From the NCBI GenBank assembly GCA_018003015.1, contig JAGNEZ010000013.1:1-64000 (forward strand): DNA of 64,000 nt. The letters run 5' to 3'. The translations under genes and the position numbers were made by a program. The stretch's first letter is position 1; every line of letters starts with the position of its first letter. This document shows positions 25,380 to 33,262 of this stretch, one piece after another. The notes under the pieces are model-generated. The model had not been told where the DNA came from and did not search any database. It saw only the letters and a program-made list of their open reading frames with translations. Source of the DNA: Phycisphaerae bacterium. GTDB taxonomy: Bacteria; Planctomycetota; Phycisphaerae; UBA1845; PWPN01.

Positions 25380-25470
25380 GGTGAGCAGGGTGGTCTGACC
25401 CCAATGTTGGGTGTCGGCGGTTCATCCCTGTCATCTTGATTTGCCGGCCCGCACGGGCTCAAATACCGCC

Positions 25471-26622
25471 ATGCGACACAACGCCTTTCTCCGAATCGTG
25501 GCGGCAGGATCGATGACCGCCGTTCTGGCCGCTGTTCTCATGACCTGGGCCGCCGATGCCGGCACGTCGAAAAGCGCCCTGGAGTCCGACGATCAGGGCT
25601 GGCAGGACATAATGCCGCCCGCCGATCTGGCCGGCTGGTACCGCGTGCCCGTGCCGCCCGGGGGCAAGCTGGGCCGCGACCAGTGGCATGTCGATGCCGC
25701 CGCCAAGCTCCTGATCTGCGACGGCGACGGCGGCCACGACATGCTCCTGACCAAGAAGGAGTACGGCGACGCGATCTTCCACTTCGAGTTTCGATACACC
25801 CAGGTCGAGGGCAAATCCGGGTACAACAGCGGGGCGTACGTGCGCAACTCCGAGGACGGCGGGCTCTGGCACCAAGCCCAGTTCGGCGATGCCAGCGACG
25901 GCTACCTCTTTGGCGAAACCCGTACCACCGAAGGTGGCAAGCAGTTCTTCACCCTACAGAAGGACGTCAAGAACGGCCGGGTCAAGCCGGTCGGCGAATG
26001 GAACATCATGGAAATCAGTGCCCAGGGCAAGGTCCTGACCCTCTGGGTGAACGGGGCGGTGACCTGCAAGTTCGAGAAGTGCGGCACGCCCCAGGGCCAT
26101 CTCGGGCTCGAAGGCGAGGGCTACCGCATTGAGTTCCGCAACCTGAAGGTCAAGCCGCTGGGCGGAGCGGCCGGGTCGACCTTCTCCAAGCCGGTGATCG
26201 ATATCGGTGTGGTCGTCTCGGACATCGAGAAGTCGGCCAAGTTCTACACCGAGAGCCTGGGGATGACCGAGGTGAAGGGCTTCTCCGTCAGCGGTGAGCT
26301 CGGCCGCAAGATCGGCCTGATCGACAACCACCCCGTTGACATTCGTGTTTTCGTTCCCGCGGATACCGACTCCACCACCCGGATCAAGATGATGTCTTTC
26401 GCGGACGCGCCCGGTAAGGCTGCCGATCAGAGCTGGATCCACTCGACGCTGGGCATCCGGTACCTGACCATCTACGTTGCCAGCGCGGATGCGACCCTTG
26501 AGCGCCTGGCCAAGACCGGCGTCAAGCCGATCGGCGAAACACCGGTTTCGTTGGGTAAGAACCAGCGTCTGATCACAGTCCGGGATCCCGACGGCGTCTT
26601 TATCGAGCTGATTGGGCCGTAA
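25471..26622 (+). CDS. Secreted DUF1080 (3-keto-glycoside hydrolase-like) domain fused to a VOC/glyoxalase domain
   Basis: The 383-residue product begins with a signal-anchor-like segment (residues 8-28). Residues about 35-225 form a DUF1080/LamG-like jelly roll (DLAGWYRV, GDAIFHFEFRYTQ, GYNSGAYVRN, GLEGEGYRIEFRNLKVKPL), a family very common in planctomycetes and recently linked to 3-keto-glycoside hydrolysis. Residues about 245-383 form a VOC superfamily domain (IDIGVVVSDIEKSAKFYTESLGM ... DPDGVFIELIGP, quoted in part). Metal-ligand positions in the VOC part include the final FIEL glutamate. The fusion suggests a combined extracytoplasmic sugar-processing enzyme, but no activity is proven. 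Confidence 0.87.
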   Translation: MRHNAFLRIVAAGSMTAVLAAVLMTWAADAGTSKSALESDDQGWQDIMPPADLAGWYRVPVPPGGKLGRDQWHVDAAAKLLICDGDGGHDMLLTKKEYGDAIFHFEFRYTQVEGKSGYNSGAYVRNSEDGGLWHQAQFGDASDGYLFGETRTTEGGKQFFTLQKDVKNGRVKPVGEWNIMEISAQGKVLTLWVNGAVTCKFEKCGTPQGHLGLEGEGYRIEFRNLKVKPLGGAAGSTFSKPVIDIGVVVSDIEKSAKFYTESLGMTEVKGFSVSGELGRKIGLIDNHPVDIRVFVPADTDSTTRIKMMSFADAPGKAADQSWIHSTLGIRYLTIYVASADATLERLAKTGVKPIGETPVSLGKNQRLITVRDPDGVFIELIGP

Positions 26623-26753: not shown

Positions 26754-28004
26754 TCATGGGTTCAGAAGGTGGTTTTGGCTTTTCGCTGGAGGATGACGCT
26801 GCAGCGAGTCGATCAACGTATCCCTCTCGGTGGCAGGCCTCGGGTTAGAAGCCGTGGGCTCCCGCTTCAGTGCTTCCAGAACGGCATCGAAGGCTGGCTT
26901 CGATTTGCCCTGGCGATCGAAGAGCAACGGGTGGTTCACTCGCTTCCAAGGGAAATCGTTTAGCCAGCTCTGGCCGTCGTGCAGATTCCAGAATGAGACT
27001 CGGGCGACGACGTCGGAGTATTTGCGGAAGAGGCGGAAGAGCTGGGCGTACTGGTCGGCCTGGCGCCGCAGGATCTCGGCAGGACAACCGTCGCGGTAGG
27101 GATCGAGCTTGGCGAGTTCCCCGCGATACCTGCCGCCGTCCGCCCACCATCGTGACCGGGGGATGACGTCGATGTCGAGTTCGGACACCACCACTTTGAC
27201 GCCGAGCTGGCGCATGGTAACGAGCGTGGCTTCAAGGTCGGTGAAGGGCAGGTGGTCCAGTTCGTAATGTCCCTGGAGGCCGATCGCATGCACGGGCGCA
27301 CCCTTCTCGCGCAGCGAACGGAGAAGGCGGATCTGCTTTTCGCGCTTGCCGGGCAGCTCGTTGTTGTAGTCGTTGTAGATGAGCAGGGCCTGTGGATCCA
27401 CCTCGTGGGCGAACTCGAATGCCTTGACGATGAAGTCCTCGCCGCAAGCCCTGCTCCAGCCCGACGGCCGCAGGAACTCCTTGCCGTCGTCCAGGGCCTC
27501 GTTGACCACATCCCACATGGCGATGCGGCCGCGATAGCGGCCGGCGACGGTGGCGATATGCGACTTCATGCGGGCGAGCAGCAGGTCGTGGCCGGCCGTG
27601 CCGTCGCCATCGCGGAAGAACCAGGGCGGTGTGCGGTCGTCTTTGGCCCAGACCAGGCAGTGGCCCACGACCTGAAGATGACGGGATGCGGCGAACTCGA
27701 CGAACGCGTCCGGCCGGGTGAAGTGGAACGACCCTTCCGCAACCTGCACCGGGTTGGGTTTGAGGCAGTTCTCCGGCGTCAGGGCGCCAAACTGAGCGAT
27801 GAGCAACGGCCAGTCGGTCGGGGTTTCGGGAATCCGGTCGCTGACGCCCGCGCCGATCGTGAAGAGGCCATCCGCGGCGGCACGCAGCGAACGCGGCTCG
27901 TTCGGTCCGGCTGTGGCCGATGGCCATGCCGTCAGCAGCCCGATGGCGGCCAGGAGGCCCCGACGGATTGACAGCTTCTGGGTCTGCATCGACACACCCA
28001 TCAT
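26754..28004 (-). CDS. Secreted GH10 endo-beta-1,4-xylanase-like enzyme
   Basis: The 416-residue protein has a signal peptide (residues about 6-32) and a single GH10 barrel. The catalytic acid/base Glu169 lies in WDVVNEAL and the nucleophile Glu275 in VVSELDID; VGHCLVW and FWNLHDGQSW match the GH10 substrate-binding strands. The catalytic barrel is of normal length with no extra binding module. GH10 enzymes cleave xylan with retention. Candidate starts are ATG 28004, ATG 28001 and ATG 27989; the last would leave the signal peptide intact. It is next to the HzsA-related gene on the same strand. Confidence 0.94.
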   Translation of the reverse strand: MMGVSMQTQKLSIRRGLLAAIGLLTAWPSATAGPNEPRSLRAAADGLFTIGAGVSDRIPETPTDWPLLIAQFGALTPENCLKPNPVQVAEGSFHFTRPDAFVEFAASRHLQVVGHCLVWAKDDRTPPWFFRDGDGTAGHDLLLARMKSHIATVAGRYRGRIAMWDVVNEALDDGKEFLRPSGWSRACGEDFIVKAFEFAHEVDPQALLIYNDYNNELPGKREKQIRLLRSLREKGAPVHAIGLQGHYELDHLPFTDLEATLVTMRQLGVKVVVSELDIDVIPRSRWWADGGRYRGELAKLDPYRDGCPAEILRRQADQYAQLFRLFRKYSDVVARVSFWNLHDGQSWLNDFPWKRVNHPLLFDRQGKSKPAFDAVLEALKREPTASNPRPATERDTLIDSLQRHPPAKSQNHLLNP

Positions 28005-28099: not shown

Positions 28100-31000
28100 C
28101 TAATCCACCGGCCCCGGCCTGGTAATCCGCGGGGCGGTCGCGATCCTCGGCCGGACGGCCAGCCAGTCGACGCCCTGGAACCACGGGTCCGGTATCTGCC
28201 GCACTTCCTCGTCGCCAAGATATGGGCACATGGCGTCCACCCAGGCGATCAATCGCTGCAGGCTGATTGGATCCACCCGCACTTGGTGGTGCTTCCCACT
28301 GGAGGCATAGTCGATGAGCCGGCTCTTGTAGGAAAGGCCGGTCAAGGGCGCGGGCGTCTTGTAGCCGGCCGGATCGATTGTGCTGAAGGCCTCGACCATG
28401 AGCATGCCCGCCAGACCCCAGCCGGGGGTGGATTCGCGCGGTTTCCGATAGGGCTCACCCCAGCTGGGATGGCCGGTGAGAATCACATAAGGCTCGCTGA
28501 AGCCCAAGAAACCCGGCCGATCGGTCAAATCCAGCACCTTCTGGCCTTCGCCGTCGCCCTGGTGGCACTGGCCACAGTAGCGGTCGAGGACCGGCTTGGC
28601 GTATCGGGCATAGCTGACGGTGTCCTCGCCCCACGGCGGTGGCGTGATCTGCAAAGGCTCCCGGGTCACCGCCGTGCCCCGCGTGGTGTTCATCGGCGTG
28701 CGAGCGTGAGCCTCGTGGCAGCCTAGGCAGCCGCGGTACTCGCCCGGCATGAGCCCGACGAAGCTCCGCATCGTCTGCAAGGCCCGTTGGTTCTCGTCCA
28801 GCAACTGGAAGTGCAGGGGCATGCCGGAGGGGGCGTGGAAAGAGACTGACCCGTCCGAATCGATAGGCGCGGTGCCCAGGACCCGCTTGACCCCCTCGGA
28901 CTGCACGATCGAGACCACCGGTCCGGTCGAGATGTACGGCCGCTTGTGCCAGTAGGTGTAGGTCTTCGGCTCGATGTGGAGAATCCGCAGGTAGCGGGCT
29001 TTGTCCTTCAGTTCGGGGGGCGCCCCCCGGTAGACATCGTTGCTGAACAGCACGCCCCCTTTGGGACTCGATCGGTCGGCACGCCCCGGCCAGGCAACCT
29101 GGTCGGGGATGATCGGTGGCCGGGGCCGTGGCTTGACTGGCAGGGCGTGAAGGATATTGTGTGCGCCCTCGTAGATCAGTTCTCGGTTGCCCTCCACGTC
29201 CATCAAGTATAGCAGGAACTTGCCCCCGCGGTTGGCGGACACCAGGAAGTCCTGCTCGCTCAGCGGATACGGCGAGTAGTAGGCTGGATACTTGCCACTG
29301 CAGTGATAGTCCGGGGATTCAATCGGGTCCACCGGTCCGTTGCCTGTCTCAGGCCAGGGCACGTCGGCCGTGATCTTGGTCAAGCCTTGCGGGAAGTTGA
29401 GACCCTGCGCCGGGTCGAGGATGGCCAACGAGCCGGCGAACCAGTCGTGATGGGCGCTGCCGGTGAGCAGGATACGGCGGCTGCCGGGGATGCACCTGGC
29501 ATCCTTGGTCACGTCGGGCCAGACGCTTTGGTTGCCCCACAGCGTGTTGACCTGCATGCCGTCGGGGTTGACCGTCCAGAGCTTTTGGGCCCGCCACAGC
29601 GGCTTGTCGGTGTACTCCCAGCGGGTGTAGAGTACCCGGCCTTCGTGGGTAACCGAGGGCAGATAGTCGGGTTCGTTGTTCTGTGAGATCAGATACACAT
29701 CGCGGCCGGATCGGTCGCATCGGGCCAGCACGAAGGCGTTGGTCGGGGGCATGCAGCGGACATAGGTGTGACCGCGCGTGGTGGTGAACACGATGTGCCG
29801 ATCATCGGGCAGGTAGATCGGGTCGAGATCATCGTACGCCCCGTCGGTCAATTGGACGAGGCCGGTGCCGTCCACGTTGATTTCGTAGAGGTGAAAGGAC
29901 TTCTCGTTGTGTGGCTTGTAGCAGAACAGCACCTTGTCGGCGTCGTAGGACAGATCGGGACGCCAGAAGGAACCGTGCAGCGGCGGCTGGGGCATGAGCT
30001 GGTTCAACTTGCCGTCGGGTGACAGGCCGTCCAAGATCAGCAGCCGGGCGCCGGGGACGGCCATGTATCCCAGCCGATGGCGGGTCTCGTGCCGCCACTC
30101 CGAGCCCTGGGGATAGGGCATGTCCACGAAGAGCACTTTTCCGAAGTCGACAACCGGATTGCGGAACTGGATCGATCGCTTGATCCGGCGGACTTCGAAA
30201 TACGGCTCCGGGTCGTCGCCCGGCAGACTCGCCGCTCGCTTCTCCAGGTCGGCGAGGCGGGCCAGGTCGGCCGTGAAGTCCACCCGGCCAGGCCATCGCG
30301 ATTGAATCCTAGCGGCCAGGTGGCGGGTCCACGTGACCTCGTCGCGGATCCGCTGGGGCGTCGGGTTGCCGTCGGCCTGGTGCAGCCAGTCACGCCGCAG
30401 GGTTTCCTCCGCCTCGCTCGCCGAGAGGTCGCGCGTCGGGGGTGTGGATGGTCGAACGTAGGGTGCCACGGGCTCCTGGAGGTAGGGCCGAAGCTGGACC
30501 CGGGCTCCAATCTGAAGGACCAGTTCGATCCACTCGGGTGAGCCGGTTGCGGCGTCGCCTTGGGCCTTGAGCTCCTCGAAACGTTTTCGGAGGTCATCCG
30601 CTTCCTCCCACTTCTTGCGGTCTTCGTCGGTCTGTTTGCTCCGCTGGTGCTCGGTCAGAGGCTTGTACTCCATCATGAGCTCGATGAGCCGCGCGGTCTG
30701 CTCGATGAGCGGCCCACTCCTGCGGGCGGTGACGTATTGCGGCAGGCCGGCGCCGGTCCAGGTCGTGAAACAACGGGATTCCTCAGGGAAGGCCCGCCGG
30801 AGCACCGCGAGCGCCGCATTCAGGACTTCGGGATCGAGCCCGGCATCCCTCTCGACCACGGCCCGGCGACAGCGGAACAGCATGTTGGCGAACGAATCGG
30901 CAGGGCCGCAGATAAAGCCGGCTCGCTCCTGCAACGCCTTGAACGCCTGCTCGGCTGGCTCGGCACCGGCCTGATATAGGCTCTTCACTTCCTCGGCCGT

Positions 31001-31729
31001 CAATGCGTCGCCGTAGACTCGCAGATCGTCCAGGCCGCCCTGGAAGTGCTCTCCGGTGCCGCCCAATGAGCCGATGAAGAAAGGAACGGCCCCGTTCGAC
31101 GCGATCGTGCCGGGCCGCTCCAGCCGGGCGATCTCCCGTCCGTCGAGGTAGACGCGCATGTGCCGGCCGTCGAACGTGGCGGCACAGTGATGCCATCGGC
31201 CGTCGAGGACCTTCGCGGGCTCGACCGGGCCGTCGCACTCCACGTATCCGCCGATGTTCAGACCCAGCGACAGGATCGTGCCGTTTTCCTGGAACGAGAA
31301 GAGCACGCGATGCGCGCACTCCTGGCGGATGATCTCGCGGAATCCCGACAGATCCGAAGGCTGCACCCATGCGCACAGGCTCAGCTTGTCGATCGTGCCG
31401 CCGCGCAGGCCGGCGCGGGTCTGAAGGTAGTATTCGCCGGTGAGATACAGGGCGGTGCCGAACACACTCGGGATTCGCCTCAGGGTCGTGGGTTGCCGGC
31501 CGGAAATAAGCGATCGAAAGCCGCCGTGCAGGGCGGTGTTGTGGTCCTGGCCACTCGCGTCGCGACAGATGTCGCCGGAGGCTTCGTCGAACGTCCAGTG
31601 GGCGATCAGCGGTGGTGAACCGGCTGGCCCAGGGCTCGCTTCTCCGTACGTGGCTGTGCTGCTGGTCACGGCCAGTGCAGGAATCAACAGGAGAATCGCG
31701 GGAAGCCCAGGTGCGAGTCGGTTGTTCAT
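28100..31729 (-). CDS. Secreted LamG/HzsA-related dihaem cytochrome-like protein
   Basis: The 1209-residue product starts at an ATG after AGAGAGG and has a signal peptide. Residues about 42-235 are a LamG/concanavalin-like domain (LIAHWTFDEASGD ... GGLDDLRVYGDALT, in part). A helical region follows, and residues about 490-1190 resemble the hydrazine synthase alpha subunit: a Trp-rich six-bladed propeller with PD40-like strands (FRPDLSYDADKVLF, DLDPIYLPDDRHIVF) and two c-type haem motifs, CLGCH (1001-1005) and CGQCH (1052-1056). HzsA-related proteins are widespread in planctomycetes that do not perform anammox. An electron-transfer or oxidative role outside the cytoplasm is likely; hydrazine synthesis is not implied. 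Confidence 0.85.
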   Translation of the reverse strand: MNNRLAPGLPAILLLIPALAVTSSTATYGEASPGPAGSPPLIAHWTFDEASGDICRDASGQDHNTALHGGFRSLISGRQPTTLRRIPSVFGTALYLTGEYYLQTRAGLRGGTIDKLSLCAWVQPSDLSGFREIIRQECAHRVLFSFQENGTILSLGLNIGGYVECDGPVEPAKVLDGRWHHCAATFDGRHMRVYLDGREIARLERPGTIASNGAVPFFIGSLGGTGEHFQGGLDDLRVYGDALTAEEVKSLYQAGAEPAEQAFKALQERAGFICGPADSFANMLFRCRRAVVERDAGLDPEVLNAALAVLRRAFPEESRCFTTWTGAGLPQYVTARRSGPLIEQTARLIELMMEYKPLTEHQRSKQTDEDRKKWEEADDLRKRFEELKAQGDAATGSPEWIELVLQIGARVQLRPYLQEPVAPYVRPSTPPTRDLSASEAEETLRRDWLHQADGNPTPQRIRDEVTWTRHLAARIQSRWPGRVDFTADLARLADLEKRAASLPGDDPEPYFEVRRIKRSIQFRNPVVDFGKVLFVDMPYPQGSEWRHETRHRLGYMAVPGARLLILDGLSPDGKLNQLMPQPPLHGSFWRPDLSYDADKVLFCYKPHNEKSFHLYEINVDGTGLVQLTDGAYDDLDPIYLPDDRHIVFTTTRGHTYVRCMPPTNAFVLARCDRSGRDVYLISQNNEPDYLPSVTHEGRVLYTRWEYTDKPLWRAQKLWTVNPDGMQVNTLWGNQSVWPDVTKDARCIPGSRRILLTGSAHHDWFAGSLAILDPAQGLNFPQGLTKITADVPWPETGNGPVDPIESPDYHCSGKYPAYYSPYPLSEQDFLVSANRGGKFLLYLMDVEGNRELIYEGAHNILHALPVKPRPRPPIIPDQVAWPGRADRSSPKGGVLFSNDVYRGAPPELKDKARYLRILHIEPKTYTYWHKRPYISTGPVVSIVQSEGVKRVLGTAPIDSDGSVSFHAPSGMPLHFQLLDENQRALQTMRSFVGLMPGEYRGCLGCHEAHARTPMNTTRGTAVTREPLQITPPPWGEDTVSYARYAKPVLDRYCGQCHQGDGEGQKVLDLTDRPGFLGFSEPYVILTGHPSWGEPYRKPRESTPGWGLAGMLMVEAFSTIDPAGYKTPAPLTGLSYKSRLIDYASSGKHHQVRVDPISLQRLIAWVDAMCPYLGDEEVRQIPDPWFQGVDWLAVRPRIATAPRITRPGPVD

Positions 31730-32077: not shown

Positions 32078-33262
32078 TCACTTCATGCAGTTCGGATCCG
32101 CCAGTTGGTTCTCGCCGCTGTAACACCGCTGGAAGATGCCAAAGTCGGCTTGGTCCACGTCATGATCTTTGTCGAGGTCGGTTGCCGAGCACGTCGGGGT
32201 ATCGCTGCGCGGAACGGCCGGTCCTGAGAAGCACGATGCAAATGTGTTGAGATCCTCCGCGTCCACGTCGCCGTCGTCATCGAAGTCGGCCTGGCCGCAA
32301 ACGGCGGGGACGATTATCGCGTCAACGGTGGCCTCGGCGTCGATCGAGACGTTCTCGCTGGCGAGCAGAAGATAACCTTGACCGCCGTTCGCGCCGCTCG
32401 AGTAGTAGAACGGATCCCAGGCTACGGGTTCGGTGCTGAGTCCGCCGCCCGCTCCGCCGATGGCTCGGATCTGGGCCGTTTCGCCGAATACGATCATACC
32501 GGCGTGCAGCTCGATGTTGCCTCCCGCGCCTCCTCCTCCGGGTCCCCCGTGGGCGAACACGTTGGCGAAAGCCACTCCCCCATGCGATCCGTTGGCCAGC
32601 AACTTGCCGGTTAGGCTCAGGCGCGCTGGGGTCGAGATCTGGAGTCCTCCCGCACCTCCTCCGCCGTCTCCTCCGGGGATGTCGACGCCGAAGAGCAGGC
32701 GTCCGCCGCCGCCCCCTCCACCGGAGCCTCCTCCGCCCTGCTGGCTGGGCACAAGCCTCGGCCGAGGAACGGCCCGGCCGCCGGCTGCCGGATTCGTTCC
32801 GGTGCGTGACGTTGCTCGCCGTCCCGGTGTCGCCATGCCGCCGCCGCCCCCGCCGTTGCCCTGGCCGGCAGGAGGTGGCCCGCCCATCCCCGGAGCGGGA
32901 CCGGTACCCATCTGGCCCGCGCTGTTTTTGCCGAGCGGGCCGCCATCCCAACCGCCCGGCCCTCCCGTGATGCCGAATCCCGATACATCGATGGTGCCCT
33001 CAATGAGCACGTCCCCGGTTGCCGCGAAGAACACGGGCGTGTTGAGGTCGTTGGGTTCGAAGCTGATCCTCACGTTCGGCGGGATGCGGATGGTCGTGAA
33101 GTTGAACACGCCGTCGGGCGCGAGGTCGTTCAGCACAATCTTCTGGTTGCCCGTGGGTGTGAAAGGCCCATCGGAACCGTCCGAGACGATGCCGCTGGCC
33201 ACCACGGCGGGAACGGCCGCCAATCCGAAAGCCGACACTGCGCTGAGTACGAGTGTTCGCAT
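32078..33262 (-). CDS. Secreted Gly-rich surface protein with C-terminal dockerin-like module
   Basis: The 394-residue product starts at an ATG after GGAGGAGG with a signal peptide (MRTLVLSAVSAFGLAAVPA). A beta-helix-like N-terminal part (VLIEGTIDVSG, then GGxGG runs and repeated GGGG blocks at about 140-260) resembles low-complexity adhesin-type proteins. The C-terminal 70 residues hold two EF-hand-like motifs (DFDDDGDVDAEDL and DLDKDHDVDQADF), each followed by F..C.SG. This layout matches the C-terminus of the propeller protein at 17-2356 and the N-terminal part of the RHS protein, so it is probably a shared calcium-dependent surface or assembly module. Confidence 0.85.
   Translation of the reverse strand: MRTLVLSAVSAFGLAAVPAVVASGIVSDGSDGPFTPTGNQKIVLNDLAPDGVFNFTTIRIPPNVRISFEPNDLNTPVFFAATGDVLIEGTIDVSGFGITGGPGGWDGGPLGKNSAGQMGTGPAPGMGGPPPAGQGNGGGGGGMATPGRRATSRTGTNPAAGGRAVPRPRLVPSQQGGGGSGGGGGGGRLLFGVDIPGGDGGGGAGGLQISTPARLSLTGKLLANGSHGGVAFANVFAHGGPGGGGAGGNIELHAGMIVFGETAQIRAIGGAGGGLSTEPVAWDPFYYSSGANGGQGYLLLASENVSIDAEATVDAIIVPAVCGQADFDDDGDVDAEDLNTFASCFSGPAVPRSDTPTCSATDLDKDHDVDQADFGIFQRCYSGENQLADPNCMK

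Follow-up and report, generated by a model that had tools for sequence, protein, structure and literature searches.

A LamG-HzsA dihaem fusion protein from a Phycisphaerae bacterium: a putative secreted oxidoreductase built on an HZS_alpha core

The window analysed, the first 64,000 nucleotides of contig JAGNEZ010000013.1 of a Phycisphaerae bacterium, contains on the minus strand at 28100-31729 an open reading frame (ORF; ATG start, 1209 residues) in which a LamG domain is joined to a core like that of the alpha subunit of hydrazine synthase (HzsA), here termed the LamG-HzsA protein. There is about an even chance that it represents a secreted, surface-acting dihaem c-type oxidoreductase, one of a family sharing the HZS_alpha core and found in polymer-degrading, probably anaerobic bacteria. 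Taken together, sequence and predicted fold show a signal-peptide-like start, then the LamG domain and a helical spacer, followed by the propeller, an HZS_alpha domain that bears haem I and a cytochrome-like C-terminus that bears haem II, of which an invariant histidine is the putative sixth ligand.

Domain organisation and predicted fold

The features assigned to the gene were as follows.

28100..31729, minus strand: LamG-HzsA gene, two c-type haem motifs (ORF, Pfam, motif scan)
31649..31729, minus strand: signal-peptide-like N-terminus, residues 1-27 (hydrophobicity heuristic)
30956..31612, minus strand: LamG / ConA-like lectin domain, residues 40-258 (Pfam 4e-23; solved-fold matches)
30209..30955, minus strand: helical linker, residues 259-507, about 245-522 in the model (AlphaFold2 secondary structure)
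29150..30208, minus strand: propeller region, residues 508-860 (AlphaFold2 model, 5C2V superposition, conservation)
29753..29755, minus strand: Cys659 (alignment of 92 non-anammox HZS_alpha cores)
29612..29623, minus strand: Arg703-Trp704-Glu705-Tyr706, non-anammox-specific motif (core alignment)
29528..29536, minus strand: Gly-Asn-Gln 732-734, with Gln734 aligned to zinc-ligand Cys303 of Kuenenia HzsA (profile-profile alignment)
29447..29452, minus strand: His760-His761, His761 being 94% conserved in non-anammox proteins (core alignment)
28712..28993, minus strand: HZS_alpha middle domain PF18582, residues 913-1006 (Pfam 3.1e-21)
28715..28729, minus strand: haem I motif CLGCH, residues 1001-1005 (motif scan)
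28703..28705, minus strand: Ala1009, at the position of the HzsA axial Tyr591 (alignment)
28562..28576, minus strand: haem II motif CGQCH, residues 1052-1056 (motif scan)
28289..28291, minus strand: His1147, aligned with the region of His772, the distal haem alphaII ligand of HzsA (alignment)

Both Pfam assignments were secure, Laminin_G_3 (PF13385) at residues 113-249 scoring 82.7 bits against a gathering score of 27.6, and PF18582 76.2 bits against 26.6. AlphaFold2 modelling of residues 40-1209 from 37 orthologues (mean predicted local distance difference test score, pLDDT, 77.9; predicted template modelling score 0.71) gave the order beta-sandwich, long helical region, propeller, HZS_alpha domain and helical C-terminus. 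Its best match in the Protein Data Bank was hydrazine synthase alpha, 5C2V (Foldseek E 1.7e-20), and residues 528-1180 superposed on chain A of that structure with Z 33.3 over 568 residues (root-mean-square deviation 3.9): the model thus predicts a real propeller. The combination in one protein of LamG, an HzsA-like propeller and two CxxCH motifs, as proposed in an earlier note made from the DNA alone, was confirmed by Pfam, motifs and fold superposition, the helical stretch between LamG and propeller being an addition to the domain list given there.

The LamG part matched, among others, domain 4 of arabinanase AbnA (5HON; Z about 23), a sugar-binding domain solved with arabino-oligosaccharide, with which it shares the fold and 23-24% identity over 195-197 residues. 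However, the clade-invariant Arg135, Glu137, Arg141, Tyr162 and Glu164 were unmatched in the pairwise alignment, and the ligand may therefore differ.

Relation to hydrazine synthase alpha

Scored against NF052339, the NCBIfam equivalog model for HzsA, the LamG-HzsA protein reached 37.3 bits against a cut-off of 800, a threshold passed in 27 genomes of the sampled phylum with scores above 1000; an HzsA above the cut-off was found in none of 19 carrier genomes. In HzsA, His587 of the CxxCH motif and Cys303 bind zinc while Tyr591 holds the haem iron (PMC12758564, PMC12607021). Profile-profile alignment (probability 99) placed Gln734 in the Cys303 column, as in all 26 LamG rows, and Ala1009 in that of Tyr591, where the orthologues mostly have serine and all four anammox rows tyrosine. 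At the Cys303 column the anammox rows were divided between cysteine (2/4) and glutamate (2/4), in agreement with the remark that Scalinduaceae lack Cys303 (PMC12758564). By the same alignment the bis-His arrangement of haem alphaII is retained, as CGQCH plus the conserved His1147. No beta or gamma subunit gene was present in the window or at the same-genus locus, and a beta-gamma-like gene lay near LamG-HzsA in only three of 72 other loci.

The protein is accordingly, as judged from its sequence, not hydrazine synthase alpha, given a score of 37 bits against 800, replacement of both the tyrosine ligand and the zinc cysteine, and no adjacent beta/gamma genes. With Tyr591 and Cys303 replaced, haem I would most simply be a normal His-ligated c-type haem. 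The order propeller, haem-bearing HZS_alpha middle domain and C-terminal cytochrome with a second haem is common to LamG-HzsA and HzsA (5C2V), as is an invariant histidine near the distal alphaII ligand; the two differ in that the haem motifs lie 51 residues apart in LamG-HzsA and 102 in HzsA, and in that the former has an added LamG domain and helical linker and a conserved residue set of its own. The earlier note had placed the protein outside nitrogen metabolism, and in the anammox sense this is borne out, since the pocket residues differ, none of the 19 carrier genomes has an HzsA above the cut-off, and no neighbouring beta/gamma genes were found in the window or the same-genus relative.

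A wider role in nitrogen chemistry, as a relative of hydrazine synthase acting on hydroxylamine, NO or ammonia through an altered pocket, is consistent with the closeness of the fold, and two paralogues in the same genome have partners like those of the non-anammox homologues of clades I-IV (PMC12758564). It is nevertheless improbable in view of the replaced Tyr591 and Cys303, the lack of an HzsA above the cut-off in the 19 carrier genomes and the rarity of beta-gamma-like genes at LamG-HzsA loci, and the authors of PMC12758564 share this negative view for their own homologues. The two paralogues are HzsA-like genes (L034:7057-11471 and L035:6513-11110), each adjoining a dihaem gene that combines propeller and CCP_MauG and looks like a fusion of beta and gamma subunits, so both kinds of gene coexist in the window's genome.

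A residue set specific to non-anammox proteins

Alignment of 92 non-anammox HZS_alpha cores, a sample picked for the presence of two CxxCH motifs, revealed a distinct set of near-invariant positions: Cys659 in 89 of the 92 (96%), Arg703 (94%), Trp704 (93%), Tyr706 (96%), His761 (94%), Met987 (98%), Arg988 (93%) and Glu997 (94%). None of the eight occurred in the four anammox rows. The LamG-HzsA protein is therefore not a decayed HzsA either, because the non-anammox cores keep a separate and equally fixed residue set. Both haem motifs were also present in 49/49 loci from two HZS_alpha searches (profile ending before the motif); these loci were found via PF18582, whose end covers the first motif, which limits the strength of the check to haem II.

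Read in the order of its strands, the model puts Cys659, Arg703-Tyr706 and His760-761 within the B-C loops of three consecutive blades, or where those loops begin, and Gln734, which corresponds to Cys303, in a D-A loop. As B-C and D-A loops share one face of a propeller, Cys659, Arg703-Trp704-Tyr706 and His761 should point to the side that in HzsA carries the zinc and haem I.

These residues bear on a different explanation, namely that the protein is purely an electron-transfer or extracellular exchange cytochrome, in which propeller and LamG provide docking surfaces, both haems are non-catalytic, and electrons are relayed to or from cells, with a polymer or mineral at the other end. Two haems, one of them retaining a bis-His arrangement, an active site that is only putative, and carriers from samples anoxic by title would all suit such a relay. 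It is held to be rather unlikely, the conservation of the propeller (137 columns at 97%) being far beyond the apparent needs of a relay, with Cys, Trp, Tyr, Arg and His kept on the loops of the family; just two haems are present, and no multihaem partner or porin recurs alongside.

Distribution and conservation of the clade

Of 79 loci recovered from genome_contigs, about 70 were co-linear LamG-HzsA proteins or fragments with 50-89% identity. They were distributed over Planctomycetota, Verrucomicrobiota, Armatimonadota, Hydrogenedentota, Kiritimatiellota and Lentisphaerota, plus single metagenome-assembled genomes (MAGs) labelled Nitrospiraceae and Nealsonbacteria that are possibly misbinned. 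The 51-residue spacing of the haem motifs recurred in 61 of 73 two-motif rows, a few of which are duplicate records, and among 57 aligned orthologues 137 propeller and 43 HZS_alpha columns were at least 97% conserved. A simple hydrophobicity criterion assigned a Sec-signal-like N-terminus to 50 of the 64 nearly full-length orthologues, and one showed a lipobox-like match; 11 of the 64 have length enough for a second LamG domain, and the one scanned had two LamG stretches.

Comparison with the same-genus copy gave a ratio of nonsynonymous to synonymous substitution rates (dN/dS) of 0.20 overall and 0.10-0.12 in the core. Some 70 co-linear orthologues across phyla, with both haem motifs and low dN/dS, mark LamG-HzsA on this sequence evidence as a conserved protein and argue against a chance fusion. 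Between the two copies (28100-31729 and L030:10116-13793), dS was 0.18-0.19 in the propeller/haem part and 0.42-0.43 in the LamG/linker part, a contrast that may reflect recombination or codon constraint.

In a tree of 96 core rows the LamG proteins formed one clade (Shimodaira-Hasegawa-like approximate likelihood ratio test 100) adjoining close relatives without LamG, and the four anammox HzsA sat on a branch of length 2.9; the tree, a quick search with no bootstrap and midpoint drawing, carries no direction of descent.

A cytochrome c assembly gene (PF01578) was detected in all eight carrier genomes tested, gut ones included, which makes haem attachment plausible. In the gut planctomycete genomes G510-G512 (L120, L149, L126) the assembly domain is part of open frames 2044-2094 residues long.

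Copy number and modules of the HZS_alpha family

At E 1e-10, HZS_alpha was found in 69 of 392 sampled planctomycete genomes, mostly as one or two genes, with high counts in a few (35, 24, 23, 18 and 12). All 16 further LamG-HzsA carriers were multi-copy, with 5-87 genes each, the figure of 87 coming from a Kiritimatiellia MAG of 6.3 Mb (the L116 genome, G524). Counts were also extreme in the genomes of L143, L103, L144 and L146, which comprise a Lentisphaerae MAG with 38 and three Verrucomicrobia MAGs with 35, 34 and 32. By comparison the window's genome is poor, with three. LamG-HzsA itself occurred in 6 of 11 planctomycete genomes with at least seven HZS_alpha genes (one of the six genes being cut by a contig end) and in 1 of the remaining 381, the window's own (Fisher p 7e-10, the LamG gene itself counted once).

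The modules carried by 46 HZS_alpha paralogues were FGE-sulfatase (12), F5/8C (7), NPCBM (4) and LamG (3), with one paralogue each having a GH2 N-terminal or a rhamnosidase N-terminal domain; all of these except FGE are of sugar-binding type and, assuming no double carriers, amount to about 15 of the 46. Many paralogues with one core and varied terminal modules would be expected if a single redox chemistry were aimed at different targets. The 12 FGE-sulfatase proteins, L206:1-3276 and 11 more, have a formylglycine-generating-enzyme-like domain fused to the dihaem HZS_alpha core, in L206 after it.

LamG and other adhesion-type modules in very high copy number could also denote a surface protein with an adhesive or structural and not an enzymatic role, haem serving to stabilise or to sense; the probability of this is low, both haem motifs and the putative pocket being kept in at least six phyla.

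Gene neighbourhood

The neighbouring gene on which the earlier note had drawn is the following.

26754..28004, minus strand: GH10 xylanase-type gene, 95 bp downstream of LamG-HzsA (Pfam E 6.1e-83)

Its position beside LamG-HzsA on the same strand was as described, and the spacing is 97 bp in the same-genus genome, as would befit an operon partner in xylan degradation. That explanation is very improbable: a GH10 search of 72 other clade loci (1.19 Mb) yielded a single weak match, 7 kb distant and 22% identical, and the window's own was the sole GH10 among the matches listed for 64 downstream neighbours. The adjacency is a one-genus coincidence. The neighbour tallies by Pfam (64 downstream, 57 upstream and 124 further genes, 245 in all and including the window's own two) disclosed, among the matches listed (25 top families per set), a few sulfatases and no other recurrent carbohydrate family, and an alpha-galactosidase lay near orthologues in 3 of 72 loci. 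When 652 neighbour ORFs were clustered no cluster occupied more than 8 of 73 loci; the largest was a second HZS_alpha paralogue, always on the same strand, its 8 loci comparing with 0.3-3.5 expected according to the copy number assumed.

Genome-wide counts were of a different kind. GH10 was present in 55 of the 392 sampled planctomycetes (14%), comprising 7/7 genomes with LamG-HzsA and 48/385 others (Fisher p 8e-7), and in 16/16 LamG-HzsA genomes from other searches. Oxidative sugar or polymer chemistry, which the earlier note had drawn from the context, hence loses its neighbour argument, no carbohydrate family beyond a few sulfatases recurring among the neighbour matches listed and no second clear GH10 appearing in 72 loci, but gains from the genome-wide GH10 association and the paralogue modules. 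The titles of many carrier MAGs name rumen, rectum, gut, digesters, deep lakes and sediments; habitat, taken from names only, suggests an anaerobic function.

Proposed function

In the secreted oxidoreductase preferred here, LamG would bind a polymer or surface glycan and keep the core there. Haem I, attached at CLGCH, would have its own histidine as normal proximal ligand, with neither tyrosine nor zinc, and would face the BC/DA-loop side, where Cys659, Arg703-Trp704-Tyr706 and His761 may form the reaction site. A substrate would be oxidised (less likely reduced) without a beta/gamma partner, electrons moving between haem I and bis-His haem II and then to a diffusible carrier.

A number of points weigh against this proposal. 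LamG domains are promiscuous in the window's genome and can bind proteins besides sugars. The loops holding Cys659 and Gln734 have pLDDT below 50, and the nearness of the loop residues to haem I is a topological deduction from the model. The neighbours of LamG-HzsA point to no pathway, and for every member of the family activity, ligand and redox partner are all putative on present sequence evidence. The co-occurrence with GH10 may be explicable by large genomes or a heterotrophic lifestyle; being confounded in this way, it leaves sugar or polymer oxidation as a conditional element of the proposal.

Relation to earlier work and wider significance

A 2025 study (PMC12758564) assigned non-anammox HZS homologues to clades I-IV, with a focus on those adjoining beta-gamma genes, and reported that key HzsA residues are not conserved in them and that clade I lacks His772. 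The LamG clade is like clades I-IV in having the HZS_alpha core, non-anammox hosts and no HzsA catalytic residues; unlike them, picked as they were by beta-gamma co-location, it has such a gene in 3/72 loci, and unlike clade I it keeps His1147. The main text of that paper mentions neither the fusion to LamG nor the separate residue set nor the expansion in copy number, and none of the three was found in other open papers (subscription papers and supplements lay outside the search).

The PSCyt/PSD proteins of Planctomycetes-Verrucomicrobia-Chlamydiae (PVC) bacteria are likewise secreted and CxxCH-bearing, expanded and domain-shuffled, and some lie near PF13385 proteins (PMC5615132). The LamG-HzsA protein shares secretion, CxxCH motifs and membership of an expanded, domain-shuffled family, but its core is a propeller plus HZS_alpha, and no PSCyt/PSD Pfam match to it was listed at E up to 0.01.

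A broader proposal is tentative, and thought somewhat more likely wrong than right: the HZS_alpha core may define one of the largest families of extracellular haem enzymes in PVC-type bacteria that degrade polymers, with an active site of its own (Cys659, Arg-Trp-x-Tyr and His761 over a c-type haem) and an undescribed anaerobic polymer redox reaction, HzsA being a divergent, neofunctionalised offshoot. Hydrazine synthase has, to our knowledge, so far been regarded as almost free of relatives. Outside anammox bacteria the HzsA core occurs widely and in many copies, as many as 87 in one genome, and has different conserved residues, so that the origin of hydrazine synthase gains a concrete comparison set; there are also hints of an unfamiliar haem chemistry outside the cell in bacteria of rumen, lake and sediment. 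Annotation of PF18582 hits as hydrazine synthase would lead to false claims of anammox. A MAG named 'Candidatus Anammoximicrobium' may be compared in this respect: it has LamG-HzsA and a tandem HZS_alpha gene (L094:7887-15105) and no HzsA above the NF052339 cut-off.

Other observations

Selenocysteine at an in-frame TGA, considered for three relatives, was rejected: in two the TGA is an ordinary stop after the last aligned residue, and in the third nothing points to selenocysteine. Promoter and terminator scans gave no excess over shuffled sequences. Among the longest non-overlapping ORFs elsewhere in the window, CxxCH occurred as a single motif in one ORF of 3113 residues. In the gene at 25411-26622 (plus strand) a 3-keto-disaccharide hydrolase domain is joined to one of glyoxalase type. 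Upstream of LamG-HzsA, 32078-33262 (minus strand) encodes a secreted glycine-rich protein with a C-terminus dockerin-like by eye and no Pfam match; the same-genus genome has an FG-GAP/Ig protein between the glycine-rich dockerin-like gene and LamG-HzsA.

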